57,257 nucleotides of DNA from contig JAPLKL010000062.1 in NCBI GenBank assembly GCA_026388095.1, positions 1-57,257 of the forward strand, given 5' to 3'. This stretch comes from Elusimicrobiota bacterium (GTDB lineage: Bacteria > Elusimicrobiota > Elusimicrobia > UBA1565 > UBA9628). The notes beneath the pieces are model-generated. The model was given only the letters and a program-made list of their open reading frames with translations, did no database searches and had not been told where the DNA came from. Shown piece after piece: positions 9,475-33,702 of the stretch. Each line of letters starts with the position of its first letter. Positions within the stretch are counted from its first letter, which is position 1. A program made the translations under genes and the position numbers.

Positions 9475-9512
9475 GCCCCGGTGGCGACATCCTCTCGCTT
9501 CGCCTCTGTTCA

Positions 9513-9547: not shown

Positions 9548-9552
9548 ATTCC

Positions 9553-9558: not shown

Positions 9559-9564
9559 CCCCAT

Positions 9565-11597: not shown

Positions 11598-11678
11598 TGT
11601 AGACTATAGTATTCTAATCGCAGGCATTTGTCAAGGCGTGTCCCACTATATATACGATTGAGGCGCCATTTAGTTCCC

Positions 11679-13105: not shown

Positions 13106-13119
13106 GAGCTAGACCGACT

Positions 13120-14691: not shown

Positions 14692-14700
14692 TTTGATCTC

Positions 14701-16674: not shown

Positions 16675-17114
16675 CTACCGTCCCTCGGCCGCAACCTTGA
16701 CGTGGAAGTACTTCGACACCCCGGCGCCGAAGAATATCACGATGACCTGCTTGCACTGATGACCGGATAATCCGTCGGCATGTACCGCGTGCAGCTTGGC
16801 CTCAGGTTCAGCCAGAGCAAGATGGCCAAATACGACAGCCACCAGCCGTAGATCACCAACTCGGCTGAAATCGCATATCGGTCGGCATTGCCGCTCCAGC
16901 GGCGCACCTCATGCTCGCCCGCGAAGGCGGCCAACAGCCCCGTGTACATCTCCGGCGTCAAAAAGCGCGTCCCGGCCGAGAACATGAACTCGCGCAGCTC
17001 TAAGCCCAAGTAGGTGGCGGTATAAAGGAAGACGATCAGATAGAGCGCTTGGCGCAGAGTGTGCGGGCTTGGGTCGGGGCCAAGTCGGACTCCATGGCGG
17101 CAGGCAGACCACAC
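16675..17114 (-). pseudogene. diverged, frameshifted member of the AYA-REWEKW membrane-protein family
   Basis: The first 110 codons encode two or three membrane segments with YTGLLAAFAGEHEVRRW and then WWLSYLAILLWL. This lines up with QAYAMVLTAYAATREWEKW and ITLPLILWL in the protein encoded at 22267. After YMPTDYP the match continues only in another frame (QVIVIFFGAGVSKYF, comparable to AAVLGVFAGSKASAAW), ending at the TAG complement at 16675. One base has been lost or gained near 16765. This is the most diverged and leftmost member of a family repeated through 33.3 kb, and the only one on the minus strand. Confidence 0.6.
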
Positions 17115-17266
17115 GGCGCAGCATGTTGGCGGCGTTCATGGGACTATTCGTTAGATTGCCAAGGATATACGCATATTGTAGTATTCGAGATGCTGGTATA
17201 TTGGCGAATTGGACTAGCCCGGTTGGTCTGGTGATAGTTAGCGCGGGAATAGGAAGAGGAGGACCC

Positions 17267-18298
17267 ATGACGAAGTTTAGGGATGTAGTTGCTGCTATCT
17301 GTCTCACGATTTGTTTGGCTGGGGCGATATCATTAATCGTGCTTGTGTGGATGGTCCCATCGCAAACCCCGATGGTCACGAACCTTCTCAATATTCTTCT
17401 CTTCATTCTTTCAAGCCTTTTCGCCGTAATTGTTGGTTACTACTTTGCGCGTGTTAGCACATCTGAAAAGGTCGATACCATTGCCGAACAATCAACCGAG
17501 AAGATGGTCCATTTGTCCCTGCAATTGCAACATCTCAAGAGTTATCTGCAAGAGACTGTAGAGGTGGCGGAAGAAGAATCACATGTTAACATTATGGCCG
17601 AAATGAACGCCTACCGGCACCGAGTCGAGGCCGCCGCAGAGACAGCCGCATCGCTCGCTTCATCCAACGAAACGTTTCGTAGCGATTGGCTCGGCATTGT
17701 CTCAGATTCTGCCCGTGGGGCAATCGAAAAAAAATATGAGAAATTGCGTGAGTACCTACAGGATGCAGAGACCTATGAACGTCTCAAGACCGAGCGGATT
17801 GCGGGCGGTACAACTGCGGCCGAGGATGAGAAACTCCGTGCAGTTGAAGCGCGGATAGAGATTGCCAGGAAGCAGTTGCCGATCCAGCAACTCCCTTTCA
17901 GACCGTTGGTGCATCAGCCTGCAGTATCTGTCGAACAAGTAATAAAAGAGGCTTCTGAATCGCACCAAACCGGCACTCTGAAGGTAAAAGTGATAAGACC
18001 AGTTTTTATGGCAACCGGTTCCGGTAAACTGACTCCCCCCATGCGGAGCGTGCCTTGGATATCACATAAATTAGTATCACATCCTGCTGAATTGATTGTT
18101 GACAATTTCCGGGCATCCCCGGGGACCGGAACCACATATGATTTTAACATCTGTCTAAAGTCAATGATGTTCGGCGTTTATCTCCCCCTTGGAGAGTATG
18201 TCTTTGAGTACGATGCGGGGGAAAATGGAGCCGGCCGAGCGTCGGATGCGACTTCACGGCCCAGTCTACGCGCGACATCCGCAACGCCTCAAGGCTGA
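17267..18298 (+). CDS. coiled-coil membrane protein upstream of P-loop NTPase
   Basis: The chosen start is ATG 17267 with AGGAAGAGGA upstream; the longer in-frame reading is not protein-like. The 343-aa product has two membrane segments (about 9-30 and 40-62). A long helical, probably coiled-coil region follows to about residue 215, then a beta-type region (GTLKVKVIRPVFMATGSGKL, then LIVDNFRASPGTGTTYDF). The last 25 residues (SDATSRPSLRATSATPQG) look unlike protein. The -1 frame reads CDFTAQSTRDIRNASRLI and then a stop, so a frameshift near 18215 is possible. No family is recognised. Codon and base use are AT-richer than in the flanking chromosome. Confidence 0.65.
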   Translation: MTKFRDVVAAICLTICLAGAISLIVLVWMVPSQTPMVTNLLNILLFILSSLFAVIVGYYFARVSTSEKVDTIAEQSTEKMVHLSLQLQHLKSYLQETVEVAEEESHVNIMAEMNAYRHRVEAAAETAASLASSNETFRSDWLGIVSDSARGAIEKKYEKLREYLQDAETYERLKTERIAGGTTAAEDEKLRAVEARIEIARKQLPIQQLPFRPLVHQPAVSVEQVIKEASESHQTGTLKVKVIRPVFMATGSGKLTPPMRSVPWISHKLVSHPAELIVDNFRASPGTGTTYDFNICLKSMMFGVYLPLGEYVFEYDAGENGAGRASDATSRPSLRATSATPQG

Positions 18299-18902
18299 TA
18301 TTGGCGGGGGATTGATAAGGATTGCAGGACCGTCTGCCGAAAGGGCCAAGAGTCTAGTGCTTCTAGATACCTACCCCTACTTCGACGAGCCCGTATTGTC
18401 TCGGCAGGAATTCCAGCCGATTGCGCTTGTGGGGTTGCCCTACAGGACTCAAACCACAAGTACGGTTTGATGAGGGGGCCGTGGAAACGTACGAGGCCAG
18501 GCCTCGTGTCGCGCCACGGCCCTACTCTGCGCATGAGAGCCCGTCTCTAAAATGGTTCTGAACAAACCAGTTCTCCTTTTGCGGCCGGAGACTTTTTGCT
18601 TTATTTTTGCATAGGTCTGCACTATGAGTCCCATCTAAATATAGGCCAGAAAATGTTTCACCTTTGCCCCAGAGACCCATTCAGAGGGATATGGGCCGGT
18701 GTTAGAATAAAGCAGTATTATTTGGTGCCATTATCATATGATTCCACAAAGCGTGTGTATCTCCCAGACACATCAGAGAAAAACAAGACATGCCCTAATC
18801 GATCTCCATGGATTACATGATGCCGATGGCGGGATTGATATCAAGACGAAGGACGGGCGAATTACATTTCAATACCCAGCGCGCTGCTAAACAGAGGTGA
18901 AT
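18299..18902. other. 600-bp low-GC gap with ORF fragments
   Basis: There is no convincing full gene. Plus-strand fragments are visible. One reads RLKADIGGGLIRIAG and continues through LDTYPYFDEPVL to a stop at 18470. Another from ATG 18738 ends in DGGIDIKTKDGRITFQYP at 18890. Both look like remains of genes broken by frameshifts. AGAGGTGA at 18894-18901 is the ribosome site of the next gene. Confidence 0.35.
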
Positions 18903-21632
18903 ATGGAATTTTCCCTTGCAATGAAATTGGTTGCCGATGAACTGTTAGATAAAGAGGTGGCGACAAAGGAAACCTATTCCCAAAGCGCGTCCTTAGATAT
19001 GGCGCGAGAAATCCTACATGCGTCTCCTGAATATAAATTGGGGGACTTTAGCAGTCCTACTTTGAGGGATTTCATCAAGAATGAGGATTCGCTGGGGCCA
19101 TATGAAAAGCACATTCTTTGCACGCTTCTGTTAGGGCCATCCAAGGTGGTGGCAATCCTCGGCGGGCTGGGATGTGGGAAATCTTCCTCAATGAAATTCG
19201 TCAAAAGGTTTGTTGACGAGAACCGCGTGGGTAACCAAATAGAGGTTTTCTTGGTCGATGGGAATCTGATGGACATTCATTTCCCGCCGACTAATGATGA
19301 AGCCATTCGCCGACAACAATGGGAGCATCTTCTGGGCGAACTCGACCGCCAAGTGTACGAGACTTTCTGCGTCACAGCGAAAACCAAAAACGCGGTTTAT
19401 TCGATACTTGCATCAGCGCAAAGGCGAAGGTATCTGCCCGAAGGGAAGAAAGGTGGAATCGGGTCTAATTTCGCAATCATACAAGATGTAATGGCAAAAT
19501 GCGGAGGGTTGACTGAACTTAAGAGCGCATTGGATAACGGGCGCGATGTAAATGCGCTCATTCGCAAAGTGGTCCTAGAGGAAATGAAGCCAGGAGACAT
19601 GACTAGTTTGACTATGGCGTTGATGCAAGTTCGACATCTCCAAAAGCCATTGGCAAAACGAAGATCAATCCTTATCGTTGACAATCTCGACCCATTGCCG
19701 AGATATTTGCAGAAGGATCTGCTAGTTTTCCTTCTGCGACGCGGGAATCCAATTGACTATATGGTCGCTGTGCCCCTGCGCTTGTCCACATTCGAAGAAG
19801 CCTCCCGATACCACCCATTTTCGTGGTACCCGCATTCCGGGCCACTGCCATTAGAAATCCTCTTTAGTAAGCTTGCCGTCTTTCTCGCGAACCCAAAGGC
19901 TCTGAACAGCTTTCAAAGCGTTACCGATAGGGGAATGCAGAGCCGCATCTATTTTAGAGTTACCGAATTCTTCTTCCGTTTTCTCGTGGGGTCTCGCGAT
20001 TTTAGAGATATCTTCGAATCGATTGCGGGGCATAATGTGCGAAACGCATATGATGTTGCCTCCGGATGGTTACGCCATATAAACCTGCGCAGCAATTATC
20101 CAGACCTGGACATGCGGGAAGTGCAGGAGGAGGTTCGGCGGCACAGCTTCTTGTTCTTCTGTGAAGAGGTAATTATGACCTTATCGCGTGTCCTGCGCAC
20201 GGAATCAACAAGAAGAGAATTTGCCCCCAAAGCACTTTCTGTTGACGGTGAAGAAATGGCGAAGAGAATCGGTGTGCACCTCGCGGAACGGCTTGCCGCG
20301 ACTTGCGCAAAGCAAGTACAGAGATTTATCGCGAATGTGCGTTGGGTTTCCGATTTGAAGCCGGCAGACTTTGACAGGTACCTAGCATGGGCTTTCGGGA
20401 AACTCGAGATGTGTTTTGATCAAGAGAACGAGCACTTGAGTCCACTCGCAGGCGCCACGGCATTCGCCCGGCTGGAAGGAGCCCGGGTTGGCAGAAAAGA
20501 TGAATTCTGTCAGGAAGCTATGCGAGAGCTGGCCAAGACGCTACAAGATCAGGGGGCAGAGGTCATCTCCGCTGCGGGGATTTCTCTGACCAGCGCGAAA
20601 TTGCTGTGCAAAGGCATCATTGATCGACTGCAATCAGGAATGAAGGTAGACCCAAGCGATAGAAGGGTGGAGTTGGAAATCAAGGAGCCCTGTAAATATG
20701 CTGCACCCAATATTGAGGCTGGCATAAGGGGGCTACTCGATAGGAACAGCAGGTACGAAGCTGCCAAGAGTCTGATCTTTCTCGACGATGCTACTAATCC
20801 CTTGCGAGAGAAATTCATTTTTAACGTTTTCGGAATTAGAAGAGAGCTTAGCCCATTAGGTCTTCGAATCATTTACCTCCTTGCCGAGCAAAGGGGGCAA
20901 TTTATGCCGGTTCAGCAGTTGCTATCCGAGTTGGACCGCCATGGATACACAGATGAGGTTGAGACACGAGATGTTTTCAATAGCATGATTGACACTGACC
21001 GGCGGTTGCTCGCAATCGCCGTCGACGCAGATTTTCAGAGCTATTCGGAGATTAAGTGCCTCACAACGCAGAACGTGCAATTGACCCCGGTGGGCCGCAA
21101 TTACTACGAGCGATTGGTTTGGCAGCCTGTTTATATTCAGGCGATGCTTCCACGATTGGTAGGCCGCGGCTGTGATGATGAGCCAAGGGAATCTTCGCGA
21201 CATGAGGAGAACTTCCGCATTCTCAATCGCCTTGATGAGACATTTGATGCCCTTAAGAATCTTGTTGAAAACGAGTTCTCTCGTTTGGGAAAGCCTTGGA
21301 ATTCCCGGATCCAGATCCAATGGCGACCTGTTGATTTAGAATGTCAGAGCGCAGCTGGCGATGTCTATACAAAGAGTCTGGAACGCTTTGTCACCTCTTG
21401 TTGTAGTCACTTCCACAATTTACGCCAAGAGTCTAATGGGAACGCCCACCGCGTAGCCGAACTGACCTTCCAATGGATTGACTTTGGTCGGCAGATGATG
21501 CTCAAGCACGCTGAAATATTCAAATCAAAGAATCAAAATTGGGAGGTGCGAATCGGAGAGGCCGATAGGCTGGCAGAGAGGAACATGGGGCGTGAATATG
21601 CCAATTTGCGACATCCCCAGGTTTCTCTTTGA
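18903..21632 (+). CDS. large P-loop NTPase, possible defence ATPase
   Basis: ATG 18903 is chosen because AGAGGTGA lies 1-8 nt upstream; the GTG at 18897 is part of that site. The 909-aa product has Walker A GGLGCGKSS near residues 87-95 and a Walker B-like SILIVDNLDP near 255-265. The Asp-Asn pair resembles STAND/KAP-type NTPases more than AAA+. The remaining 600 residues are mostly helical with no named domain, including a winged-helix-like stretch around LGLRIIYLLAEQRGQFMPVQQLLSEL. It is AT-rich compared with the flanks. It lies between a coiled-coil membrane protein gene and a small two-TM protein gene, with which it overlaps. Confidence 0.75.
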   Translation: MEFSLAMKLVADELLDKEVATKETYSQSASLDMAREILHASPEYKLGDFSSPTLRDFIKNEDSLGPYEKHILCTLLLGPSKVVAILGGLGCGKSSSMKFVKRFVDENRVGNQIEVFLVDGNLMDIHFPPTNDEAIRRQQWEHLLGELDRQVYETFCVTAKTKNAVYSILASAQRRRYLPEGKKGGIGSNFAIIQDVMAKCGGLTELKSALDNGRDVNALIRKVVLEEMKPGDMTSLTMALMQVRHLQKPLAKRRSILIVDNLDPLPRYLQKDLLVFLLRRGNPIDYMVAVPLRLSTFEEASRYHPFSWYPHSGPLPLEILFSKLAVFLANPKALNSFQSVTDRGMQSRIYFRVTEFFFRFLVGSRDFRDIFESIAGHNVRNAYDVASGWLRHINLRSNYPDLDMREVQEEVRRHSFLFFCEEVIMTLSRVLRTESTRREFAPKALSVDGEEMAKRIGVHLAERLAATCAKQVQRFIANVRWVSDLKPADFDRYLAWAFGKLEMCFDQENEHLSPLAGATAFARLEGARVGRKDEFCQEAMRELAKTLQDQGAEVISAAGISLTSAKLLCKGIIDRLQSGMKVDPSDRRVELEIKEPCKYAAPNIEAGIRGLLDRNSRYEAAKSLIFLDDATNPLREKFIFNVFGIRRELSPLGLRIIYLLAEQRGQFMPVQQLLSELDRHGYTDEVETRDVFNSMIDTDRRLLAIAVDADFQSYSEIKCLTTQNVQLTPVGRNYYERLVWQPVYIQAMLPRLVGRGCDDEPRESSRHEENFRILNRLDETFDALKNLVENEFSRLGKPWNSRIQIQWRPVDLECQSAAGDVYTKSLERFVTSCCSHFHNLRQESNGNAHRVAELTFQWIDFGRQMMLKHAEIFKSKNQNWEVRIGEADRLAERNMGREYANLRHPQVSL

Positions 21633-21651
21633 GAATCAGTGGGAGGATGCG

Positions 21652-21936: not shown

Positions 21937-22266
21937 GTCGCAGTCAGCGGCCCCGGCGCTCGCCGCCTCTGTTGGGCAATCGCCTCCATGAGTAAGACAG
22001 ACAATCTTTGTCGACGGGAGAAAAGCGCCGAAGGGTCAGACGGAGAGTCCTCCAGTGGGAAAGCGGCGGCTAAACCATCCGCAAGCAAGAGCTCGAATAC
22101 TGCGTCCTCTTCCGCGACACTGACTGTGCTAAGCTCCCCAAGCCTTAACCCCTCACGGAAGACCCCGACGCCGCCACCAAGTTTTCCAAATTCCTGCCCA
22201 ATCCCGCGCCGCGCTCCGGAGGGCAATTTCAGCTGCCTTTTGCTAGAATCGGCTGGACTCACGCCC
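21937..22266. other. 330-bp gap with possible decayed minus-strand gene and promoter of membrane protein
   Basis: On the minus strand a protein-like stretch reads GVFREGLRLGELSTVS, continues through LLLADGLAAAFPLEDSPSDP and ends in QRLSVLLMEAIAQQRRR near 21950. It has no convincing start and may be the tail of a lost gene. On the plus strand an extended -10, TGC-TAGAAT (22241-22249), precedes the membrane-protein ATG by 17 nt. The same TTTTGCTAGAATC precedes the copy at 27590. Confidence 0.4.
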
Positions 22267-23364
22267 ATGACCCCCGACCAGCCCGCCCCACCCGCCAAAC
22301 TCGCCATCCGCCGCACCCTTCGCCTGGGCTCGGGCCTGCTCGCCGCCGCCGCCATCCTCGACCTCGCCCGCGAAGCCTACTCCGGCGGCTCCTGGCTCGC
22401 CACCCCCGGCCTCGGCCAAGCCTACGCCATGGTCCTCACCGCCTACGCCGCCACCCGCGAATGGGAGAAATGGACCGACCCCAAAGACCAGACCGCCTAC
22501 CACGGCCACTACTACCTCCTCGCCTGGATCACCCTACCCCTCATCCTCTGGCTCACCGACATCACCAACATCGCAGCCCCCGCATGGCCCGCCAACCTCA
22601 ACACCACCCTCGGCTGCGTCCTCGCCGCATACGCCGGCAGCAAAGCCTCAAGCCGCTGGCGCGGCTTCACACGCCGCGCATTCGTCAAAGCCCGCCTCCA
22701 GCCCCCGGCCCAGCCAGAGCCCCTCACCCCCGACCGCCTCCTCACCAGACACACCCTCAGGATCGGCGCCATGCTCTTGGGCGCCGCCTGCCTCTGGGAC
22801 GCCGCGGTCGAAGCCTTCTCCGCGGGCGCATGGACCTACACCGGCCACCTCGTCTCCACCTACAGCCTCGTCCTTGGCGCCTACGCAGCCACCCGCGAAT
22901 GGGAAAAATGGACCGACCCCTATGACCAGGACGCCTACTGGGGCCAATGGTTCGTGGCCGCCTGGTGCCTCCTGCCCGTCCTCATCTGGCTGACCATGGC
23001 CGTAGGCTTCCCTAATAAGTGGCCCTCCGGCCTCACCCCCGCCCTGGCCGCTGTCCTGGGCGTCTTTGCCGGCAGCAAAGCCTCCGCGGCTTGGCGGGCG
23101 GACAAGGCCAAGAAAGGCTGGGGGAACGTCCCTGGCCTCCCCCAGCCCGCCCCGGGCGACGGAGCAGCCCTCCCGGCCGACCCCCCCGGCCCAGCCGACC
23201 AGGTCGCCCGAGCCTGCCGCAAGCGCGGCGCCTTCACGGCCGAACAGATTGCCTCGGACACCGGCCTGACCCTGCGCGCGGCCCGGGGACATCTTGGCGT
23301 ACTTGTCAGGGAAGGGTATGTATCCAATGACGGCAACGACCAGTTACATTGGATAGGACCTTAG
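22267..23364 (+). CDS. two-module membrane protein with C-terminal winged helix (family copy A)
   Basis: The 365-aa product holds two homologous membrane modules at about residues 15-135 and 155-275. Each has four hydrophobic segments and the signatures AYAATREWEKWTDP and (V/A)LxxxAGSKAS(S/A)xWR. A Pro-rich linker leads to a wHTH-like end (DQVARACRKRGAFTAEQIAS, then RAARGHLGVLVREGYVSNDG). A membrane protein with a DNA-binding-type tail suggests either a membrane-tethered regulator or a chance fusion. The start ATG is 17 nt after TAGAAT. Parts are nearly identical in DNA to the copies at 27590 and 32849, so duplication is recent. No family name is recognised. Confidence 0.75.
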   Translation: MTPDQPAPPAKLAIRRTLRLGSGLLAAAAILDLAREAYSGGSWLATPGLGQAYAMVLTAYAATREWEKWTDPKDQTAYHGHYYLLAWITLPLILWLTDITNIAAPAWPANLNTTLGCVLAAYAGSKASSRWRGFTRRAFVKARLQPPAQPEPLTPDRLLTRHTLRIGAMLLGAACLWDAAVEAFSAGAWTYTGHLVSTYSLVLGAYAATREWEKWTDPYDQDAYWGQWFVAAWCLLPVLIWLTMAVGFPNKWPSGLTPALAAVLGVFAGSKASAAWRADKAKKGWGNVPGLPQPAPGDGAALPADPPGPADQVARACRKRGAFTAEQIASDTGLTLRAARGHLGVLVREGYVSNDGNDQLHWIGP

Positions 23365-23553
23365 GCCTTGAAATAGGTACATACCATGTGTCCGGCAGAC
23401 ATGTATGTATACATCGGATGTATGTATCCTACCAGTCGCGGAACAGTCAGAAATGCATGAATTTACATCACTTATTTAAAATAACAGTCGACCCCACAAG
23501 AACAGTCGCCCCACCAGTGAACACCATAGCCACCCCCTCAGTCAGGAACCCCA
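23365..23553. promoter_or_regulatory. repeat-rich spacer before lipoprotein copy 1 (ATGTATGTAT and ACAGTC motifs)
   Basis: ATGTATGTATACAT followed by GGATGTATGTAT (23400-23428) forms direct and inverted repeats. ACAGTC occurs at 23443-23448, 23484-23489 and 23502-23507. The second lipoprotein copy is preceded by a much larger array of the same ACAGTC core, so the motif belongs to this gene's upstream region. Function is unknown; a repeated regulator site is one option. Confidence 0.45.
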
Positions 23554-24201
23554 ATGAGCAAAATGACCGCGTTTCTCCCGATAGGCCTGCTGGCGGTTTT
23601 GGCCGCCTGCGTCCAGCCCAACATCTCCTATGAGCCCGGCCCCACGGCCCAAAACCGCCTGCCCATCCGGGCCGTGGTCTGGCTCATTAAGGAACAGCCC
23701 CCCGAGCCCCCAACCGGCCGGCCGGCAACGGACGCCCCCATGGAGACCAGCCTGACCAAGAACGGATCCCTTTGGCGGCCCCAGCTCACCATGCAGGTCC
23801 TAAGCAGAGCCTTGGCCGCTGAAATCGAGGCGCGGGTCGCGGAGAACGCCGAGGTCGTGGAATGCAGCTACAATAACTGCCCCATAGTAGCGGAAGAGCA
23901 AGCCGGCGCCCGGCTGTTCGTGGAGGGCACTGTGGTCGAGGCCGTTGCCAGCCGCTCGCGCGGCGGCAACCAAGTATACCGCCTTAAGATCGACCTCTCC
24001 GCCACCCTGGTCCGCCAGCGGCAGCCCAACCTGCAGTCCTACTGGACCAAGACCGTGGAGGTCGAGCAGGGCCGCGCCGGCCGGCCCGCCAAGGACCTCG
24101 CTGAGCTCATGCGCAAGGCCTTTGCCCCAGCGGCCGATGAGCTGGCCCGGGCCCTGGAGCAAAGCCCGGCGGCCGAGGCTTTGGCGCAGGCGGGGCAGTA
24201 G
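23554..24201 (+). CDS. predicted lipoprotein, copy 1
   Basis: The 215-aa product has a lipoprotein signal peptide (lipobox LAAC, Cys20) and then a secreted domain. The latter has WRPQLTMQVLSRALAAEIEARV and a pair of Cys around VVECSYNNCPI, and helices at the C-terminus. No family is recognised. It is intact, unlike its near-identical copy at 28600. The start could be ATG 23554 or 23563; both are changed in the second copy. It follows membrane-protein copy A, as copy 2 follows copy B, so the two genes were duplicated as a block. Confidence 0.75.
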   Translation: MSKMTAFLPIGLLAVLAACVQPNISYEPGPTAQNRLPIRAVVWLIKEQPPEPPTGRPATDAPMETSLTKNGSLWRPQLTMQVLSRALAAEIEARVAENAEVVECSYNNCPIVAEEQAGARLFVEGTVVEAVASRSRGGNQVYRLKIDLSATLVRQRQPNLQSYWTKTVEVEQGRAGRPAKDLAELMRKAFAPAADELARALEQSPAAEALAQAGQ

Positions 24202-24250
24202 CCCTGCTGAAGGGCTCTTCCCTCTCGACCGACAAGACCGGCAGCCTTCA

Positions 24251-24365
24251 TAGGGGCGCCGCGACCAAGGAATAGTCGCGTCGGGGTTGCGGCCTGACCG
24301 GCCGCAACCTTTAATTCTGAGGCAGCCGGCAGGGAACTTTCCGCGGCCAAAATCGTACATATAGT
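24251..24365. repeat. ~110-bp repeat element, copy 1, with perfect 10-bp hairpin
   Basis: The element begins TAGGGGCG and holds a stem-loop at 24285-24309 with arms GGTTGCGGCC and GGCCGCAACC and loop TGACC. It ends with the core GGAACTTTCCG and TCG(T)A(C/T)AT(A/G)TAGT at 24333-24365. The same element occurs at 26022-26133, and the core again at 29334-29366. Each copy lies upstream of a different cargo gene. There is no U-run after the hairpin, so it is not a typical terminator. Confidence 0.6.
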
Positions 24366-24470
24366 ATGAGCCACCAACGCGCCAAACCGATTGTCCAGCA
24401 GCCTGCTGGCGTATTGACCGTGCCCGCCGGCTATCCTGACTTCCTCAAAGATAGGGAAAAATTGACCGAA

Positions 24471-24540
24471 TCCTAATTTATCCTAATTTATTGTAATTTA
24501 GGATATTGACATATTGAAGAATACCTGCTATCCTAATTTA
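24471..24540 (+). promoter_or_regulatory. Fic promoter with TCCTAATTTA operator repeats
   Basis: TCCTAATTTA occurs three times (24471-24480, 24481-24490, 24531-24540), and a near-inverted TAATTTAGGA lies at 24494-24503. Between them is a strong promoter: -35 TTGACA (24506-24511), 17 nt, -10 TATCCT (24529-24534). The third repeat overlaps the -10, so a bound repressor would block transcription. The Fic protein ends in a winged helix and could bind here itself; that is inferred. Confidence 0.65.
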
Positions 24541-24570
24541 AGTCAGATTAGTATAAATTATGATGAAACC

Positions 24571-25935: not shown

Positions 25936-26021
25936 GCCCCGACCAGCCCGCCAAACTCGCCATCCGCCGCTTTCTGGAGCCTCCGCCCCAGCCGCCCCGC
26001 CAGATCGGCTTCAAGCCCTAA
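25932..26021 (+). pseudogene. N-terminal remnant of the membrane-protein family
   Basis: Overlapping the Fic stop (ATGA), an ATG opens MSPDQPAKLAIRR, which equals the first residues of copies A and B (MTPDQPAPPAKLAIRR and MSPDPSAPPAKLAIRH). After that it diverges and stops after 29 codons. It is followed directly by the 110-bp repeat, so only the first 40 bp or so of the family gene survive at this junction. Confidence 0.6.
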
Positions 26022-26133
26022 TAGGGGCGACGCGACTGAGGAAGGGTCGCGTCGGGGTTGCGGCCTGACCGGCCGCAACCTTCGATTCCGAGGCAGCCCG
26101 GGAACTTTTTCCGGCCTCATTCGTATATGTAGT
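26022..26133. repeat. ~110-bp repeat element, copy 2, with perfect 10-bp hairpin
   Basis: The order of parts matches copy 1: TAGGGGCGACGCGAC, a stem-loop at 26056-26080 with arms GGTTGCGGCC and GGCCGCAACC, then GGAACTTTTTCCGG (26101-26114) and TCGTATATGTAGT (26121-26133). The next ATG is only 11 nt further on, with GGAG just before it, so here the end of the repeat probably supplies the promoter or leader of the AlbA_2 gene. Confidence 0.6.
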
Positions 26134-26143
26134 GGAGACTCGC

Positions 26144-27509
26144 ATGAAAGAAAACCAGCATATCGAATACAAGGAATCCTGGCGTGACGAATGCCTGAAG
26201 TGGATCTGCGGCTTCGCGAACGCCGACGGCGGCGTGCTGCACATAGGCCGCAACGACAAGGGGGTGGTCGTCGGCTTGGCCAACGCCTCGAAGTTGCTGG
26301 CGGATATTCCCAACAAGGTGCGCGATATCTTGGGCATCATGGTGAAGGTCAACCTGCGCGAAGAAGCCGGGAAAGAGTACCTGGAGATCGCGGCGGAGCC
26401 TTATCCCTGCCCGTGAGTTACAAGGGCGAGTACCACTACCGCAGCGGCAGCACCAAACAGGAACTCAAGGGCGCGGCGCTGGACCGATTTCTCTTGAAGA
26501 AGCAAGGCCGCCATTGGGATGGCGTGCCGGTTCCCCATGTCAAGATCGAGGACTTGGATAGAGCGGCTCTGGCCTATTTTCGCAAGCGGGCCTTGAGCAG
26601 CAGGCGGCTTTCCCCGGAAATACTGGGAGAGCCGGACCCCGTGTTGATGGAGAAATTGATCTTTTGGATGGGAATTACTTGAAACGGGCCGCCCTGCTCC
26701 TGTTCCATCACGACCCTGAAAAATTCGTCACCGGGGCCTTCGTGAAGATCGGATTCTTCCGCGGCCATTCGGACCTGCTGTACCAAGATGAGATCCATGG
26801 CGACCTGTTTTCCCAGGTCGACAAGACGCTGGACCTCCTGTCGACCAAATACATGAAGGCGTTGATTTCCTATGAGGGGATTCAACGCGTGGAGACCCAT
26901 CCGGTGCCGGATGAGGCGATGCGCGAGGCCGTGCTCAATGCCGTGGCTCATAAGGATTATTCCAGCGGCCATCCCGTCCAGATCAGCGTGTACGACGACA
27001 GGATCTTGCTGTGGAATCCGGGGCAATTGCCGCCCGCTTGGACCGTGGAACGATTGCAGGAGAAGCATTCTTCCCAGCCCTTCAACCCGGATGTAGCCAA
27101 TGCGTTCTTCCGGGCGGGCATGATCGAGGCTTGGGGCCGCGGCATCGAACGGATACTGGAGGCCTGCCGGTCTGCCGGTGTCCCCGCTCCGGTGCTTCGC
27201 TGCGAAGGCGCCGGGTTGTGGGTGGAGTTCCCTTTCAAAACCGAACTAACGGAGAGAAGAACCGGGGCGACTACCAAAGAAACTACCAAAGAAACTACCA
27301 AAGAAACTGCCCAAGAAACTACCCAAGAAACTACCCAAGAAAAGATTCTGGCCCTTCTGAGAGCACGGCCTGGGACCAATCGCAGAGAGCTGGCCGCGAA
27401 GCTCGGCATCAGCGAAGATGGCGTCCAGTATCATTTGAACAAATTGAAGTCATCCGGGCTTGTCAGACATGTGGGCCCCACGAAAGCGGGACATTGGGAG
27501 GTGAGATGA
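26144..27509 (+). pseudogene. AlbA_2/Schlafen-type ATP-dependent regulator, two frameshifts
   Basis: Read across two frame changes this is a nearly full-length COG2865-type protein of about 455 aa. It has an AlbA_2 domain (HIEYKESWRDECLKWICGFA, then ADGGVLHIGRNDKG), then GEYHYRSGSTKQEL, then HATPase_c_4 (PVPDEAMREAVLNAVAHKDY) and a winged helix at the end. Breaks lie near 26411 (one base missing, CCCG) and near 26664 (one T missing from a T run). The linker before the winged helix is six 12-bp repeats at 27270-27341 encoding TTKE/TTQE units. Either the gene is dead or the two single-base gaps are sequencing errors. Confidence 0.8.
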
Positions 27510-27589
27510 ACGATCATCGCGCAAAGGGCGGTCCGTCGCCCTGACTGGCGCCGGTCTTTTGCTAGAATCCCACTGAAATAGGGACCCAA

Positions 27590-28177
27590 ATGAGCCCCGA
27601 CCCATCCGCCCCACCCGCCAAACTCGCCATCCGCCACACCCTCCGCCTCGGCTCCGGCCTCCTCGCCGTCGCCTCTTTCCTAGACCTCGCCCGCGAAGCC
27701 TACTCCGGCGGCTCCTGGCTCGCCACCCCCGGCCTCGGCCAAGCCTACGCCATGGTCCTCGCCGCCTACGCCGCCACCCGCGAATGGGAAAAATTGACCG
27801 ACCCCTATGACCAGGACGCCTACTGGGGCCAATGGTTCGTGGCCGCCTGGTGCCTCCTGCCCGTCCTCATCTGGCTGTGCATGGCCGTAGGCTTCCCTAA
27901 TAAGTGGCCCTCCGGCCTCACCCCCGCTTTGGCCGCTGTCCTGGGCGTCTTTGCCGGCAGCAAAGCCTCCGCGGCTTGGCGGGCGGACAAGGCCAAGAAA
28001 GGCTGGGGCAACGTCCCCGGCCTCCCCCAGCCCGCCCCGGGTGACGGAGCAGCCCTCCCGGCCGAACCCCCCGGCCCAGCCGACCAGGTCGCGGCGGCCT
28101 GCCGCAAGCGCGGCACCTTCACGGCCGAACAGATCGCCTCGGACACCGGCCTGACCGTGTTTATGGCTTGCGGCTAG
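27590..28177 (+). CDS. single-module membrane protein, recombinant copy B
   Basis: The 195-aa product starts like the first module of copy A (AKLAIRHTLRLGSGLLA, then GSWLATPGLGQAYAMVLAAY). After REWEKLTDP it continues as the second module (YDQDAYWGQWFVAAW). One whole module has thus been deleted by recombination at the shared REWEKWTDP stretch. The wHTH tail is cut after IASDTGLT and ends in VFMACG, unlike copy A. An extended -10, TGC-TAGAAT, lies at 27559-27567. It is open as a reading frame, but the truncated tail suggests partial decay. Confidence 0.65.
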   Translation: MSPDPSAPPAKLAIRHTLRLGSGLLAVASFLDLAREAYSGGSWLATPGLGQAYAMVLAAYAATREWEKLTDPYDQDAYWGQWFVAAWCLLPVLIWLCMAVGFPNKWPSGLTPALAAVLGVFAGSKASAAWRADKAKKGWGNVPGLPQPAPGDGAALPAEPPGPADQVAAACRKRGTFTAEQIASDTGLTVFMACG

Positions 28178-28277
28178 GTGGGCGCCCACTTGAGGTCATG
28201 ACCATCACGCCGAGTGTACTGTACTGAAGTGGGCGCGCCGAGTGGGCGCCCACTTTAGGCCAAGTGGGCGCCCACTT
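28178..28277. repeat. triple GTGGGCGCCCAC palindrome cluster
   Basis: Perfect palindromes lie at 28178-28189 (GTGGGCGCCCAC), 28241-28254 (AGTGGGCGCCCACT) and 28262-28277 (AAGTGGGCGCCCACTT). Half-copies lie at 28228-28236 and about 28280-28290. They begin directly at the truncated end of copy B. Such spacing would suit several dimers of a DNA-binding protein, or it may be replication-slippage debris. Confidence 0.6.
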
Positions 28278-28297
28278 CTGCCGCCCACTTTTTTGGG

Positions 28298-28456
28298 GTA
28301 CAGTCGATTATCTCGTATTTTGCGGGATTTCTCTGGGGTACAGTCGGGGTACAGTGGAGGGTACAGTCAGGGGTACAGGTACAGTCGGGAGTACAGTCGG
28401 GAGTACAGTCGGAGTACAGTCAGGGGTACAGTCAGGATACAGTCGCCGGTACACTC
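28298..28456. repeat. irregular GTACAGTC array (about 12 copies)
   Basis: The core GTACAGTC or a one-base variant recurs about every 11-13 nt across 160 bp, with starts near 28298, 28338, 28349, 28361, 28373, 28379, 28391, 28403, 28414, 28426, 28437 and 28449. Spacers are short, G-rich and similar, so this is a degenerate tandem repeat, not a CRISPR. It lies upstream of lipoprotein copy 2, and three ACAGTC units lie upstream of copy 1. Confidence 0.65.
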
Positions 28457-28599
28457 AAGGGTGGGTTTCTTAGGAGATTTGTAGCCGTCCCAGCCGTGGC
28501 ACTGTTCCAGGCAAGAAGTCACAAGAAGTCGTACGACTTCTTCACGACTTCTCGCGGCTTCTGTACCCCTGTAGTCGATCGCACATCCACCCCGCAAAA

Positions 28600-29248
28600 A
28601 TTAGCAAAATAACCGCGTTTCTCCCGATAGGCCTGCTGGCGGTCCTGTCCGCCTGCATCCAGCCCAACATCTCCTATGAGCCCGGGCCCACAGCCAAAAA
28701 CCGCCTGCCCATCCGGGCCGTGGTCTGGCAGTTCAAGGAACAACCCCCCGAGCCCCCAACCGGCCGGCCGGCGCCGGACGCCCCCACCCAGACCAGCCTG
28801 ACCAAGAACGGACCCCTTTGGCGGCCCCAGCTCACCATGCAGGTCCTAAGCAGAGCTTTGGCCGCTGAGATCGAGGCCCGGGTGGCGGAGACCGCCGAGG
28901 TCGTGGAATGCGGCTCCAACAACTGCCCCATCATCGCGGAGGAGGCCAAGGGAACGCTCCTGTTCGTCGAAGGCACGGTTCAGGAGGCCGTGGCCAGCCG
29001 CTCGCGCAACGGAGGCGAAGTCTACCGCCTTAAGATCGACCTCTCCGCCACCGTGGTCCGCCTGCGGCAGCCCAGCCTGCAGTCCTTACTGGACCAAGAG
29101 CGTGGAGGTCGAGCAGGGCCGCGCCGGCCGGCCCGCCAAGGACCTCGCGGAGCTCATGCGCAAGGCGTTTGCCCCCGCGGCCGATGAGCTGGCCCGGGCC
29201 CTGGAGAAAAGCCCGGCGGCCGAGGCCTTGGCGCAAACGGCGCCGTAG
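28600..29248 (+). pseudogene. predicted lipoprotein, copy 2 (start loss and frameshift)
   Basis: The sequence is very close to the gene at 23554. The two possible starts of copy 1 are ATT and ATA here. An extra T in TCCTTACTGG (near 29087) shifts the frame after LQS. Past that point the original frame resumes as YWTKSVEVEQGRAGRP and ends in ALAQTAP at 29248. Lipobox LSAC is kept. The gene is probably dead; single-base errors could explain the T but not both lost start codons. Confidence 0.8.
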
Positions 29249-29663
29249 CCCTGCCGGGGGGGCTATTGGCTCCTTCCCGGTCCAGCGCAAAGGGCGCGAA
29301 CTCGCCAGCGTCTCCAGAATTCGGGAGACCCATGGAACTTTCCGGCGCCGAGCTCGTATATGTAGTATGTGGGCAACCCCGCGACCACCTGCAATCCGAC
29401 AGCCAGACATGTATATCGCTTTCGGATAAACCGCACATAAGTCGATATAAGAGGCCAGATCCCGAAATGAATCAAAAGAATGAGACAAATGAAGCAGTGA
29501 TTCATTTACAGCCCGCCACCTCCCAGGAATGCGCGGGAATGAATCAAGGAGCCCCAGGGGCGCCAGCGGTTCAGCCGCGCGCTGCGAGGCCGGCGGCGCG
29601 GGTCCGTCCCAAGGCGACTTGTCGATAGTGTGGAGACAAGATTCCTGGAATACCAAACGGAAA
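29249..29663. other. spacer with third copy of the repeat core
   Basis: GGAACTTTCCGGC and TCGTATATGTAGT lie at 29334-29366, matching the last third of the repeats at 24251 and 26022; the hairpin part is missing. The rest of the gap shows no gene with support on either strand. A short plus-strand reading frame merges with the next gene upstream of its chosen start. Confidence 0.5.
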
Positions 29664-31157
29664 ATGAAGCACCCCTTTGATCCGCGCAAGCTGATGGAGC
29701 TGGCCGTCAAGGTCATGCGCCAGTCCGTCTCGGAGCCGCGCAAGGACGGTAAGGCGATCCCGCTTGTCGGCGCGGCGCTCGTCAAGCCCGACGGCGCCAT
29801 CGAGACGGCTTGTCGGGGCGAGCTGCGTCACGGAGACCACGCGGAATTCACGCTGCTGGAGAGAAAAAATCGCGGAAGCAGACTGGACGGCTCCATCCTA
29901 TTCGCCACGCTCGAACCCTGCGCTCCGGATTCGCGCCACCCTCCGAAGATGAGCTGCGCCGAACGCATTGTCTTGGCGCGGATCCGGGAGGTCTGGGTCG
30001 GGATCGAGGACCCCGATCCCAAGGTGGACCGCAAGGGGATCAAATCCCTGCAAGATGCCGGCGTCAAAGTGCACATGTTCGACCGCGACCTTCAGGAAGT
30101 CATCCGCGCGGCGAACAGGGATTTTGTCACGCAAGCGACTGAGCGGGCCGAAACTGCGCGGGGCGCGAAGCAACTGAAAGAGAACGCTCTCTCTCCCCTC
30201 GAAAACGCCCTGGCTGTTTCCGCCGTCAAGGATTTCTCGGCTGAGGCTCTCGATCGATACCGCTCACAGGCCAAGATCGCGGCCGTGGCGGGTTCTCGGG
30301 CTTTCAACCGCCATTTGCTCCAGCAAGGGTTGCTGAAAGAGGAGAAGGGCCGTTTGACCCCGACCGGATTCGGCTTTCTTCTCTTCGGCAAAAAACCGCG
30401 CGGGATCCTCCATCAGGCCGGCCTCCTGGCCACCATCCATTATCCCGATGGCAAGGATGAACTTCTGGATTTTGACGAGCCGCTGGTCCTGATCCCGGAT
30501 CTGGTCGAGAAGTGGCTTGGCGATAAACTACCCAACGTGATCGACCGGAGCCGGATGCAGCGCGAGACGCGGCCCGCCCTTCCCTTTGAGATGGTGCGCG
30601 AGGCCGTGATCAATGCGCTCATTCATCGGGATTACGATATCAAGGGCGCAAAATGCCAACTCGCGGTCACGGAAGACGCCATCACGATCAAGAGCCCCGG
30701 CGCTCCGCCGCCCCCTATCACGATGGGACAGATGCAAGCATTCAACGCCCCCATGCTGAGCCGCAATCCGGTATTGCATTATGTCTTCGCCCACATGGGG
30801 CTTGCGGAAGAACGCGGACTGGGCATCAAGACGTTGAAGGCCGGCGCGGAGAAGGAGGGGTTGCCCCTGCCGAGATACGTCTGGGCTGCGCCCTATCTGA
30901 GCCTGACGCTCTATCGAAGCGCGGCTGGCGCGGAGCGGGCGCTTGATGCGGGGATCCTGGCTTTGCTGAGCAAGGCCGAGAGAACTAGCTGGCGATGGCT
31001 GTCAACCAGAGATTGGGTCACTGCCGGCGAGTATGCCGCTGCGATGCGTGTTCCTCGCCGGACGGCGCAGAATCATTTCAAGCGATTTACGGACCTCCGA
31101 CTCGTCCGCCCCGAAGGTTCCGGGCCATCCACGAAGTACGAGGTGCTTTCTCCGTGA
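29664..31157 (+). CDS. RibD-type deaminase fused to HATPase_c_4 and winged helix
   Basis: The 497-aa product has an unusual order. Residues 5-145 are a zinc deaminase of the RibD/dCMP type: HAE at 59-61, PC at 85-86 with Cys98, then GIEDPDPKVDRKGIKSLQDA, close to the RibD signature. Residues 200-430 resemble the region after AlbA_2 in COG2865 proteins, with HATPase_c_4 seen in LPFEMVREAVINALIHRDYD. The end looks like a winged helix (SWRWLSTRDWVTAGEYAAAM, then RRTAQNHFKRFTDLRLV). The deaminase thus replaces the usual AlbA_2 domain. ATG 29664 is chosen because upstream codons are not domain-like. It could deaminate a nucleotide or base as a defence effector; this is inferred. Confidence 0.8.
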   Translation: MKHPFDPRKLMELAVKVMRQSVSEPRKDGKAIPLVGAALVKPDGAIETACRGELRHGDHAEFTLLERKNRGSRLDGSILFATLEPCAPDSRHPPKMSCAERIVLARIREVWVGIEDPDPKVDRKGIKSLQDAGVKVHMFDRDLQEVIRAANRDFVTQATERAETARGAKQLKENALSPLENALAVSAVKDFSAEALDRYRSQAKIAAVAGSRAFNRHLLQQGLLKEEKGRLTPTGFGFLLFGKKPRGILHQAGLLATIHYPDGKDELLDFDEPLVLIPDLVEKWLGDKLPNVIDRSRMQRETRPALPFEMVREAVINALIHRDYDIKGAKCQLAVTEDAITIKSPGAPPPPITMGQMQAFNAPMLSRNPVLHYVFAHMGLAEERGLGIKTLKAGAEKEGLPLPRYVWAAPYLSLTLYRSAAGAERALDAGILALLSKAERTSWRWLSTRDWVTAGEYAAAMRVPRRTAQNHFKRFTDLRLVRPEGSGPSTKYEVLSP

Positions 31158-31187
31158 TCACGGCGATCCGCCGAGAATCGCGCCAAC

Positions 31188-31210
31188 TATCGCGCCAAAA
31201 TGGCGCGATA
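31188..31210. promoter_or_regulatory. perfect 10-bp inverted repeat downstream of deaminase fusion
   Basis: TATCGCGCCA, a 3-nt AAA loop, then TGGCGCGATA. It starts 31 nt after the stop codon. A partial direct copy (AATCGCGCCA) precedes it. No T-run follows, so it may be a protein-binding site or an mRNA-stabilising hairpin rather than a terminator. Confidence 0.5.
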
Positions 31211-31301
31211 ACGTCTGGAGCCATCACCTTGGGTGGTGGCTTTGCGGCAACCGGACGAGGGATCGGACTGCCTGTCCGATCCCTTCCCTTGGGTGGACGC
31301 C

Positions 31302-31505
31302 ATGGTGCTCGCGGCTTACTCCGGCACCCGCGAGTAGGAAAAATGGACCGACCCCCGGGACGACAGGTCATACCACACCAACCTTGGGGCCCCAGGCTGG
31401 TCGGACTCGCTGACCAACACTCTAGCCTGCGTCCTGGCCGCCTCCGTAGGCGACCACGCTTCGGCCCGTTGGCGGGGGCTCAAGCGCGGCACATTCGCCC
31501 GTGCC
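31302..31505 (+). pseudogene. membrane-protein family remnant with in-frame stop
   Basis: The frame from ATG 31302 reads MVLAAYSGTRE, then TAG at 31335-31337, then EKWTDPRDDRSYH, then LTNTLACVLAASVGDHASARW. It matches the family signature AYAATREWEKWTDP and VLAAYAGSKASSRW. The start of the gene and the wHTH tail are missing. It separates the deaminase fusion from the toxin-antitoxin pair. Confidence 0.65.
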
Positions 31506-31571
31506 CATTTGTTGCCTCAAAGCCTGTGCGGAGATGCGGGCTGTGCTCTATGACAGTTCGCATATCGCATA

Positions 31572-31600
31572 TTGCAATTCGTCATAATCACTGTTATACT
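31572..31600 (+). promoter_or_regulatory. leaderless promoter of antitoxin gene
   Basis: -35 TTGCAA (31572-31577), 17 nt, -10 TATACT (31595-31600), then 6 nt (GTCCCT) to the ATG at 31607. Transcription should start at or beside the ATG. Short AT-rich repeats around 31561-31588 could hold an operator for the HTH protein. Confidence 0.6.
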
Positions 31601-31606
31601 GTCCCT

Positions 31607-32149
31607 ATGTTCAGCCACCCCACACACCGCACGCACCGCGGACTCAAGCCGCAGGACGTCCTTGTCCTTCTGAAGCTCCTGGCTTCGCAAGGCAAGCAAT
31701 GGCGGATGGTGGACCTGGCCATGGAGCTCGGGATCTCGCAGTCCGAGGTCAGCCTGGCCCTCGGCCGCGCGGGCTACGTGGGCCTTTTCAACTCGGAGAA
31801 GGGGGAACTGGTGAAGGCGGCGTTGGAGGAGTTCCTGCTCCACGGCCTCAAATACGTGTTCCCGGCCGAGTTCGGGATGATCTCCCGAGGCATCCCGACT
31901 TCGCATTCAGCTCCGCCGCTGGCCCAGAAGATCGTCTCGGGAGAGTCGGACCAGTACGTCTGGCCGCATCCCGACGGCGAAGCCAGGGGGCAGTCCATCT
32001 CGCCTCTGTGCGAGTGGGCGCCGCAAGCCGCCCGCAAGGACCCCCGCCTCTACGAGCTGCTGGCCCTGGTGGACGCCCTGCGCGTCGGGCGAGCCAGGGA
32101 AAGGGCGCTGGCCGCCGAAGAGCTCCACAAACGCCTCCATGCGGCCTAG
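31607..32149 (+). CDS. HTH antitoxin-like protein of AbiEii-type pair
   Basis: The 180-aa product begins with a clear helix-turn-helix region (LKPQDVLVLLKLLASQGKQW, then MVDLAMELGISQSEVSLALG). The middle is Pro-rich with QYVWPHPDGEARGQSISPL. It overlaps the next gene, a nucleotidyltransferase toxin, by 11 nt. In AbiE-type systems the first gene encodes a DNA-binding antitoxin that represses the operon; the match here is by layout and HTH, not by named family. Confidence 0.75.
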   Translation: MFSHPTHRTHRGLKPQDVLVLLKLLASQGKQWRMVDLAMELGISQSEVSLALGRAGYVGLFNSEKGELVKAALEEFLLHGLKYVFPAEFGMISRGIPTSHSAPPLAQKIVSGESDQYVWPHPDGEARGQSISPLCEWAPQAARKDPRLYELLALVDALRVGRARERALAAEELHKRLHAA

Positions 32150-32849
32150 CACGCCGAACCTCGACATGCTGGCCGTCGTAGCCAAGGGGCTGCGGGGCCT
32201 TGAGGAGTCGGTGGCTTTCGTCGGCGGAGCGGTCATCGATCTCTATCTCTCCGACCCCGGAGCGCCGCAGGCGCGTCCGACGGCGGACGTCGATTGCGTC
32301 GTGGAACTGGCGAGCCGGACCCGATACCACGACATCGAGGCGGAACTGCGCCGCCTGGGCTTCAAGCATTCCACGGAGACCGGCAGCCCGCTCTGCCGAT
32401 GGGAATACCGGGGGGTGCTTGTGGACGTGATGCCTCCTCACCAGCGCATCCTCGGCTTCGCCAATCGTTGGTACCCGGACGGCCTGGCCCATGCCGAGAA
32501 CGCGATCTTGCCTGACGGCCAGCAGATCCGAGTCTTCTCGGCCCCGCACCTTTTGGCATCCAAGCTCGAGGCCTTCCGGCATCGCGGCAAAGGGGATTAT
32601 CTGGCCAGCCGCGACATCGAGGACATCGTCGCCCTCCTGGACGGCTGCCGAGAATTCGCGGAGAGATTCCAGCGCGCTCCCGCGGAGCTCAGATCATACC
32701 TGGCAGAGCAGTTCAGGACGCTTCTGGGACAGGAGGGGTTCGTGGAGAGCGTCCCCGGACATGTCCGGGATGTCGGCCATTCGCAGGTCAGGGCGCAGCG
32801 CGTCCTCGCCCTGCTCGAAAAGCTTTCCCAGGAGCCGCAAGGTCGCTAG
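32139..32849 (+). CDS. AbiEii/AbiGii-type nucleotidyltransferase toxin
   Basis: The 236-aa product shows the nucleotidyltransferase pattern FVGGAVIDLYLSD followed by RPTADVDCVVEL, with the Thr-x-Asp-x-Asp pair that binds metal. VDVMPP supplies a possible third acidic residue, and HLLASKLEAFRHRGKGDY a Lys-containing helix. Family toxins transfer nucleotides, for some members onto tRNA, and arrest growth, acting in phage abortive infection. Translated with the HTH gene through an 11-nt overlap. Complete, with no frame damage, unlike several neighbours. Confidence 0.82.
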   Translation: MRPSTPNLDMLAVVAKGLRGLEESVAFVGGAVIDLYLSDPGAPQARPTADVDCVVELASRTRYHDIEAELRRLGFKHSTETGSPLCRWEYRGVLVDVMPPHQRILGFANRWYPDGLAHAENAILPDGQQIRVFSAPHLLASKLEAFRHRGKGDYLASRDIEDIVALLDGCREFAERFQRAPAELRSYLAEQFRTLLGQEGFVESVPGHVRDVGHSQVRAQRVLALLEKLSQEPQGR

Positions 32850-33271
32850 CCGGCCTCGGCCAAGACTGCGGCATGGTCCTCGCCGCCTACGCCGTCACCC
32901 GCGAATGGGAGAAATGGACCGACCCCTATGACCAGGACGCCTACTGGGGCCAATGGTTCGTGATGGCCTAGTGCGTCCTGCCAGCCCTCCTTTGGCTGGC
33001 CGGGGTCATGGGCGCTTGGACCGTCTGGCCGGCCAACATGAACACCACCTTGGCCACCGTTCTAGGCGTCTTTTCCGGCAGCAAGGTCTCCGGCCTTTGG
33101 CGGGCGAAGAAGGCCAAAGAAGGCGGGCTCCCCTTGCCTGGCGGCGCGGCGCCGGACCCCGACGCCCCGCCGGAGCCTGTCGACCAGGTCGCCGCAGCCT
33201 GCCGCAAGCAAAGCAAGGACTCTATAGCTAATGAGTGTGGTGGGGTCGCCATTTGGGGTGGTTTGGGGTGA
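32849..33271 (+). pseudogene. membrane-protein family remnant with in-frame stop (copy D)
   Basis: Homology begins at GCCGGCCTCGGCCAAG (32849) and follows MVLAAYAVTREWEKWTDPYD and QDAYWGQWFVMA, then TAG at 32969-32971. It continues with LPALLWLAGVMG, NTTLATVLGVFSGSKVS and DQVAAACRKQSKD. The first third of the gene is lost, and the wHTH tail is broken after CRK. Past 33236 come G-rich direct repeats of GATTTGGGG. It separates the toxin-antitoxin pair from the next wHTH fragment. Confidence 0.7.
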
Positions 33272-33366
33272 GATTTGGGGCGATTTGGGGTGCCGCCTGA
33301 CTGGTCGGTAGAAACCGCTTCATTGCGTTTCCTATCGTTTTCCACAGGTCGCCGGAGTTCTCTCTA

Positions 33367-33702
33367 ATGACCTCCGCGCAGACGGGTACCCAGAAAGGTA
33401 CCCAGAAAGGTACCCAGAAAAGTTCCCAGAAGGCGACCCAGGAAGTTAGGGTGAAAACTAGGGAGAAAGTTAGGGAGAAAACTAGGGAGAAAATCCTGCG
33501 CGCCATACAAGAAAAGCCTGGCATCACGACCACGGAACTGGCCCATGAGATCGGCCTCACACAGAAGGCTATTGAGTGGAACATCAAGAGACTAAAGGAA
33601 GGGGGAGTCCTGAAAAGGATCGGGTCCGACAGGGGCGGTCGATGGGAAATCCCGCTGCCCAGGCCTTGGCGGCTGCGCCGCAGGCCGCTCAGCCCGAGCT
33701 GA
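33367..33702 (+). CDS. winged-helix fragment with TQKG repeats (AlbA_2 protein tail)
   Basis: The 111-aa reading starts with three 12-bp repeats (33385-33420) encoding GTQK units and then similar degenerate ones. A winged helix follows: EKILRAIQEKPGITTTELAH, then LTQKAIEWNIKRLKEGGV. This is the typical linker plus tail of COG2865 proteins, as in the gene at 26144, where the linker is TTKE/TTQE. The AlbA_2 and ATPase parts are absent upstream, so it is probably a fragment, though it could be expressed as a small regulator. Confidence 0.6.
   Translation: MTSAQTGTQKGTQKGTQKSSQKATQEVRVKTREKVREKTREKILRAIQEKPGITTTELAHEIGLTQKAIEWNIKRLKEGGVLKRIGSDRGGRWEIPLPRPWRLRRRPLSPS

Follow-up and report, generated by a model that had tools for sequence, protein, structure and literature searches.

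A candidate cassette-like array of defence-type genes with a shared promoter-like motif in an Elusimicrobiota genome

The window analysed in this work, a stretch of 57,257 nucleotides, is the entire contig C62 (JAPLKL010000062.1) of the draft genome of an Elusimicrobiota bacterium (GCA_026388095.1; 4.6 Mb in 79 contigs). Between 22.2 and 33.7 kb it carries a genuine repeat, a membrane-protein gene present in one intact copy and four decayed ones, with diverse genes lying between them. The region is interpreted here, with a probability of roughly 0.55, as a cassette-like array in which small transcription units exchange their cargo by recombination between homologous flanks. A preliminary description of this DNA had proposed that the membrane gene provides the homology for shuffling; it had missed that the DNA following an accompanying lipoprotein gene, together with a promoter-like motif, belongs to the repeated unit. 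The candidate extracytoplasmic function (ECF) sigma factor regulon connected with this motif is the greatest novelty of the analysis.

Contigs of the studied genome are designated C, genomes of relatives G, and excised loci L. The comparison set contained one genome per species; 340 genomes of the phylum were searched, six of them from the same genus. Cargo genes were identified with Pfam, PADLOC and NCBIfam models. The repeated genes of the array are as follows.

22267-23364, plus strand: intact membrane gene of unit 1, whose product combines two four-helix modules with a C-terminal winged helix-turn-helix (wHTH) domain, only the wHTH domain being modelled confidently
23554-24201, plus strand: intact lipoprotein gene of unit 1 (Pfam LptE, only below the cut-off)
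25930-25970, plus strand: 5' remnant of the membrane gene in unit 2 (80% over 50 aligned columns), its ATG overlapping the stop codon of the preceding Fic gene
27556-28177, plus strand: membrane-gene copy of unit 3, with the start of module 1 fused to module 2 (84-88% over 27556-28159)
28223-28433: intergenic tract of unit 3 between the membrane and lipoprotein genes, also found on contigs C23 (88%) and C39 (78%)
28599-29254, plus strand: lipoprotein copy of unit 3, 89% to that of unit 1 (23553-24207), read in two frames
31257-31520, plus strand: membrane-gene remnant of unit 4, with an internal stop
32819-33235, plus strand: membrane-gene remnant of unit 5, with an internal stop

Matches within the membrane-gene family had E-values of 7.8e-7 or lower, which excludes chance, and the copies diverge from each other by 11-28%. 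Six copies had been claimed originally. Five of the places (22267, 25932, 27590, 31302 and 32849) were recovered with the character ascribed to them, i.e. an intact double-module gene, a short remnant comprising only the 5' end, a recombinant and two stop-containing remnants; the duplication of the lipoprotein gene with the block was likewise borne out. The sixth, a supposed decayed copy at 16675, proved to be a different minus-strand protein with a distant relationship to the family (profile E = 0.003).

Two of the copies arose by recombination between repeats, namely the fusion in unit 3 and the internal deletion in unit 2. In the former, 22237-22553 of unit 1 matches 27556-27876 and 22750-23274 matches 27635-28159, so that the start of one module is joined to the other. 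In the latter, everything between the 5' end of the membrane gene and the DNA following the lipoprotein gene has been deleted.

The following cargo genes are located between or beside the copies.

24514-25935, plus strand: cargo A, a SoFic-like Fic gene, its open reading frame (ORF) starting ∼155 bp after the motif
26144-27509, plus strand: cargo B, a gene with SLFN_AlbA_2, HATPase_c_4 and wHTH domains, frameshifted over three frames
29529-31157, plus strand: cargo C, a deaminase-HATPase_c_4 fusion, its ORF starting ∼169 bp after the motif
31595-32149, plus strand: cargo D1, a helix-turn-helix (HTH) protein with only weak family matches, lacking an upstream motif
32139-32849, plus strand: cargo D2, an AbiEii-type nucleotidyltransferase (Pfam 2.9e-8; PADLOC candidate PDC-M21B, 6.5e-59)
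33367-33702, plus strand: cargo E, a wHTH fragment (HTH_24, 2.6e-13)

These identities agree with those first proposed, except that the division of the AlbA_2 gene over three frames had been overlooked. Cargo A matched Pfam Fic above the cut-off (1.9e-15) and PADLOC SoFic (5.7e-45), and scored 58 of the required 550 bits against the curated NCBIfam SoFic model, below its cut-off; it is only a relative of SoFic. The cargo may serve in defence against phages. The expectation that cargo is unrelated from copy to copy was upheld: the flanks are homologous, while the genes they enclose are unrelated or far more diverged, as in an array of cassettes between homologous flanks.

The homology shared between units starts ∼30 bp before the ATG of the membrane gene (in unit 2, at the ATG itself) and stops at a promoter-like motif ahead of the cargo, of the form GGAACTTT-N13-CGTA. 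Because of these edges and of a repeated block of hairpins and motif, the unit is better read as starting with the motif, followed by the cargo, the membrane gene and the lipoprotein gene. The motif precedes three of the five cargos (at 24333, 26101 and 29334), and the corresponding elements are listed below.

24243-24365, plus strand: tail of unit 1, with two hairpins (terminator-like by eye) and the motif at 24333-24364
26014-26133, plus strand: tail of unit 2, a copy of 24243-24365 (82%), with the motif at 26101-26132
29334-29365, plus strand: motif ahead of cargo C

The hairpins at 24243-24327 had also been considered as attC sites, and were dropped as such, being short, perfect and, by eye, of the terminator type. 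A short peptide encoded directly after the first motif (24366-24476) presumably resembles the start of a DUF1016 protein.

In the proposed mechanism, a full unit would comprise an ECF-type promoter motif, a cargo (mostly defence-type), the membrane-wHTH gene and the lipoprotein gene. Recombination between flanks (RecA-type homologous recombination, unequal crossing-over or gene conversion) would swap, drop or add cargo, which would thus move as a block already placed behind a promoter, and the accessory genes would afterwards decay into scars. Homologous recombination is the likeliest agent of such shuffling.

Other loci of the same genome were found to have a comparable organization. HATPase_c_4 (PF13749) occurs 15 times in the genome, and a second array is located on contig C64 (locus L070, 83400-100000 of the contig). 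At L070 2234-13628, there is a row of six genes, each led by the motif; three encode SLFN_AlbA_2 and three DUF1016 proteins (one broken), and 3' pieces of an HNH gene lie ahead of five of the six. The flank pairs of this array consist of 75-90% identical DNA, whereas the three SLFN_AlbA_2 proteins are only 28-33% identical. The promoter-like motif is common to both arrays, but the repeated gene differs. The membrane gene is therefore no general connector, its place on C64 being taken by an HNH gene, and the original idea that the membrane gene supplies the homology for shuffling holds only in part: recombination scars are present in the flanks, and the second array has the same layout. Moreover, because only one membrane copy is intact, the copies look more like scars than like maintained homology arms. 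A gene related to the deaminase-HATPase fusion of the window is also present in L070, on the opposite strand.

On contig C63 (L069 5787-8384), an AlbA_2 gene is enclosed by two 78-bp pieces of a lipoprotein gene that are 91% identical; beside it, a cut-off start of a wecB-like gene was observed by eye. The same contig carries a further tandem pair of HATPase_c_4 genes, with 73% identity over 307 residues, each with an upstream motif, that of the second gene being 246 bp away.

The membrane-gene family is rare. Any match was obtained in 13 of the 340 phylum genomes, and matches with E below 1e-30 only in G000, G010 and G018; weaker matches to the transmembrane modules were found in G029, G038, G237 and G238. 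None of the six same-genus genomes has these modules, two of them giving only wHTH-like partial matches. The membrane and lipoprotein genes also occur as a pair on contigs C41 and C23 and in G010. No Pfam family was assigned above the cut-off to either protein, and when the membrane protein was modelled with AlphaFold2 (four-row alignment; mean predicted local distance difference test score 48) only the C-terminal wHTH domain was confident. A tblastn search with this protein gave no phage match, and a 43-residue stretch was matched in two plasmid records (E 0.06); records named 'Elusimicrobia bacterium' encode the same protein family. The comparison across the lineage suggested in the preliminary description was made for the family. 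Relatives with an identical cargo order and single-copy, unlinked family genes, which would have spoken against the proposal, were not seen, though the locus itself was present in no relative.

The congener G006 also encodes the HTH/AbiEii pair, with identities of 62% and 49%; the contig concerned is partly collinear with C75 of the studied genome. In that relative (L089 8205-10247, on G006 contig C167) the pair stands immediately before a truncated recQ; in the studied genome recQ lies ∼4-5 kb to its right, unlike in G006.

Several observations weigh against an array of exchangeable cassettes. It was found in no congener, only two membrane-lipoprotein copies are long, and the remaining membrane copies are short pieces. 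The motif is missing before two of the five cargos (the HTH/AbiEii pair and the wHTH fragment), and for the Fic and deaminase fusion genes the ORF starts 155-169 bp past it. Plain duplication may account for copies 2 and 3 of DUF1016 on C64 (70% identical) and for the C63 tandem pair, and on C41 the membrane-lipoprotein pair occurs without defence-type cargo.

Plain tandem duplication and decay within a defence island, with foreign genes landing between the copies and no exchange of cassettes, is the strongest competing explanation. It is a fair alternative, if less probable than exchange, because most of the membrane copies are dead; units 1 and 3 could stem from a single duplication (88-89%), a restriction-modification-type island lies just left of the array, and certain pairs of cargo genes at other loci are simple duplicates. 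It leaves unexplained, however, why the homology ends at the motif, and why a second array exists with another repeated gene, unrelated cargo and the same motif. The draft state of the assembly (79 contigs) could raise the suspicion of an artefact, but a divergence of 11-28% between copies is too great for them to have been confused, the left flank is collinear with G006 up to position 9039, and the window contains no Ns. Misassembly is the least probable of all the alternatives.

Direct repeats flank the cargo at C63, and a transposase-like fragment was noted by eye at 16088-16435, as might be expected of a composite transposon or of insertion-sequence activity. The repeats are nevertheless parts of ordinary genes and vary in length, and a Y1 transposase was met at C74 and not in the window, for which no systematic transposase search was made; such an origin seems improbable. 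An integron cassette array with lost or diverged attC sites has similarly small odds. Two integrases and attC arrays are present in the genome, attC sites lie near members of the same gene family on C23 and C45, and the intergenic tract of unit 3 recurs on C39, a contig with an integrase. These associations must be set against the searches for integrases and attC sites within the arrays themselves.

The integron-integrase model TIGR02249 gave 14 matches in the whole genome, including two integron integrases over the cut-off, on C21 and C39, and none on C62 or C64; the earlier remark that no integrase is visible thus agrees with the model search. The two integrases are followed by four attC sites (C21) and one (C39). 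A covariance model built from these five resident sites, which a very different attC type could escape, was run over 21 sources and identified nine sites above 60 bits, i.e. the five model sites and four new ones, on C79 (one), C45 (two) and C23 (one). C45 and C23 also carry other members of the membrane-gene family. With default filters and up to E 1, neither the window nor the C64 array contained an attC match; switching the filters off gave nothing above 12.7 bits (E 0.21) in the 16-35 kb part of the window. As neither array yielded an attC site with this model, their interpretation as integron cassettes was rejected.

Both integrases (L074 5170-9343, on C21; L075 10931-12719, on C39) have an N-terminal extension, are oriented in the same direction as the attC cassettes and have the motif upstream. 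A subgroup of HATPase_c_4 proteins, 36-89% identical, may represent an integron-associated gene; two of its members are divergent from an integron integrase and one lies beside attC cassettes.

L074 4040-5104; L075 8489-9532; L072 1546-2562; L025 11310-12344; L026 8202-9248: members of the ∼345-residue HATPase_c_4 subgroup

The distribution of the motif was determined in the whole genome. The pattern GGAACTTT-N(11-14)-CGTAT occurs 39 times in 4.6 Mb, and the same pattern read backwards not once. The spacer is exactly 13 nt at 39 of 40 sites (the 39 CGTAT sites and one CGTAC site in the window). Conservation was assessed for 31 independent sites with a 13-nt spacer, one per array, in comparison with shuffles. 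From -90 to -3 and from +40 to +100, the flanks had a similarity of 0.253-0.274, against 0.251-0.272 for shuffles. Two parts that had not been searched for were conserved: the spacer, with 0.44 against 0.29 for shuffles, and the bases that follow the -10 box, with 0.54 against 0.31. These values indicate a motif and not a dispersed repeat. When C75 was compared with G006 contig C167, the motif was kept before the orthologous gene although the DNA upstream had diverged (one pair compared). No occurrence was found in IMG/VR viral contigs with a stricter form of the pattern, nor in the scanned locus L111.

The first genes or operons behind the 39 sites were classified by Pfam and by sequence relatives. 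They comprise (i) ten toxin-antitoxin loci (eight by Pfam, of which the one on C7 is below the cut-off and the PIN gene on C79 is second in its operon, and two by sequence relatives), (ii) seven SLFN_AlbA_2/HATPase genes, (iii) three DUF1016 genes (one scanned, two by homology), (iv) four HNH family genes (one by Pfam, three relatives), and (v) an Eco57I-type methylase, two integron integrases and a Y1 transposase. Defence, toxin-antitoxin, nuclease or mobility genes thus account for 28 of 39 sites (23 without the five sequence relatives), or for 21 of 32 when each array is counted once. A sigma factor and a gene which we take to be comF-like make up two more, and the remaining nine include an AAA ATPase, a SpoVG-domain protein, an HTH ORF and two sites without a gene worth scanning. 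Among control genes from loci of the same genome, none of ten was of these types (Fisher p 8e-4 for 23/39, 4e-5 for 28/39 and 5e-4 for 21/32); this control is small, its ten coding-looking genes having been chosen by the author among ORFs picked by position.

The sigma factor is an ECF factor encoded on C6 (L094 2298-2882, minus strand) by a gene that starts right at the motif. The gene after it resembles, by eye, a zinc-finger anti-sigma factor. The putative comF-like product, on C51, has a double zinc ribbon and phosphoribosyltransferase domains. The motif may act as an ECF promoter recognized by the C6 factor. It is conceivable, at slightly less than even odds, that one ECF sigma factor, regulating its own gene, controls a large part of the movable defence gene pool through a near-invariant promoter, this pool including toxin-antitoxin pairs, SLFN_AlbA_2, DUF1016, Fic, HNH nucleases, a methylase, both integron integrases and the comF-like competence gene. 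DNA uptake, cassette shuffling and defence would then be switched on jointly, and arrays would expand at places where cassettes bringing their own promoter recombine by way of the repeated accessory genes.

Two further elements related to other genes lie left of the array.

16737-17406, minus strand: broken distant relative of the four-helix module, not a copy, with 90% DNA identity to a gene on C23
22035-22202, plus strand: remnant of a protease-like gene that is intact at 34733-36337 (78% over 128 bp; E 1.4e-9; two stops)

Where collinearity with G006 stops, a lower-GC island begins (9039-16119), encoding two cytosine methyltransferases, Vsr and an ORF that matches restriction-enzyme models. 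The transposase-like fragment mentioned above is of the helix-turn-helix kind and lies on the minus strand, and a 911-residue ORF (18897-21632) with a P-loop-like motif, seen by eye, had no Pfam or PADLOC match. At gathering thresholds, Rfam gave no match in the window. No empty site could be defined, as the right-flank matches in G001, G003 and G004 comprised recQ only.

If correct, the proposed organization would add a means of storing defence genes in exchangeable arrays without an integrase, and one transcriptional switch would link the integron integrases with toxin-antitoxin pairs, nucleases and a competence-like gene. The regulation of defence genes as an entire pool is an open question, which so strict a motif makes directly testable here, in a phylum that is little studied. 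In one open-access collection, no match was found for cassette arrays of defence genes between flanking repeats, nor for ECF sigma factors in connection with integron integrases and toxin-antitoxin systems or with toxin-antitoxin systems, defence and competence, and no paper with Elusimicrobial integrons in its title; nor did any open-access title among the matches listed concern ECF control of integrases or defence genes. Neither the array search nor the ECF search is proof of novelty.

Chromosomal integrons reportedly store anti-phage genes (Darracq, Getz and Kieffer, all 2025). The arrays described here resemble them in grouping small defence-type genes, and the genome has an integrase and attC arrays of its own; they differ in that no attC was detected in the window or C64 arrays and in that the units carry their own repeated genes and promoter-like motif. 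Integrons as libraries of defence genes are already described in PMC12444791, as are the SOS control of integrases and cassette-borne promoters in PMC8618304. In the Vibrio cholerae superintegron, according to PMC3948777, the integrase and cassettes are co-regulated by cAMP-CRP at one platform. On that account, common control of integrase and cassette expression would be a shared feature (putative in our case), whereas the putative ECF motif is scattered genome-wide before single genes. Typical ECF factors have AAC/CGT boxes and autoregulation, as stated in PMC8103513. Compared with such regulons, the candidate regulon has AAC/CGT-type boxes, a GGAACTT -35 element as in RpoE and a motif before the sigma gene, but its putative targets are toxin-antitoxin, nuclease, SLFN_AlbA_2, DUF1016, integrase and comF-like genes. 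Finally, defence-type genes are clustered as in defence islands, but they differ from such islands in being enclosed by homologous flanks and sharing a motif.

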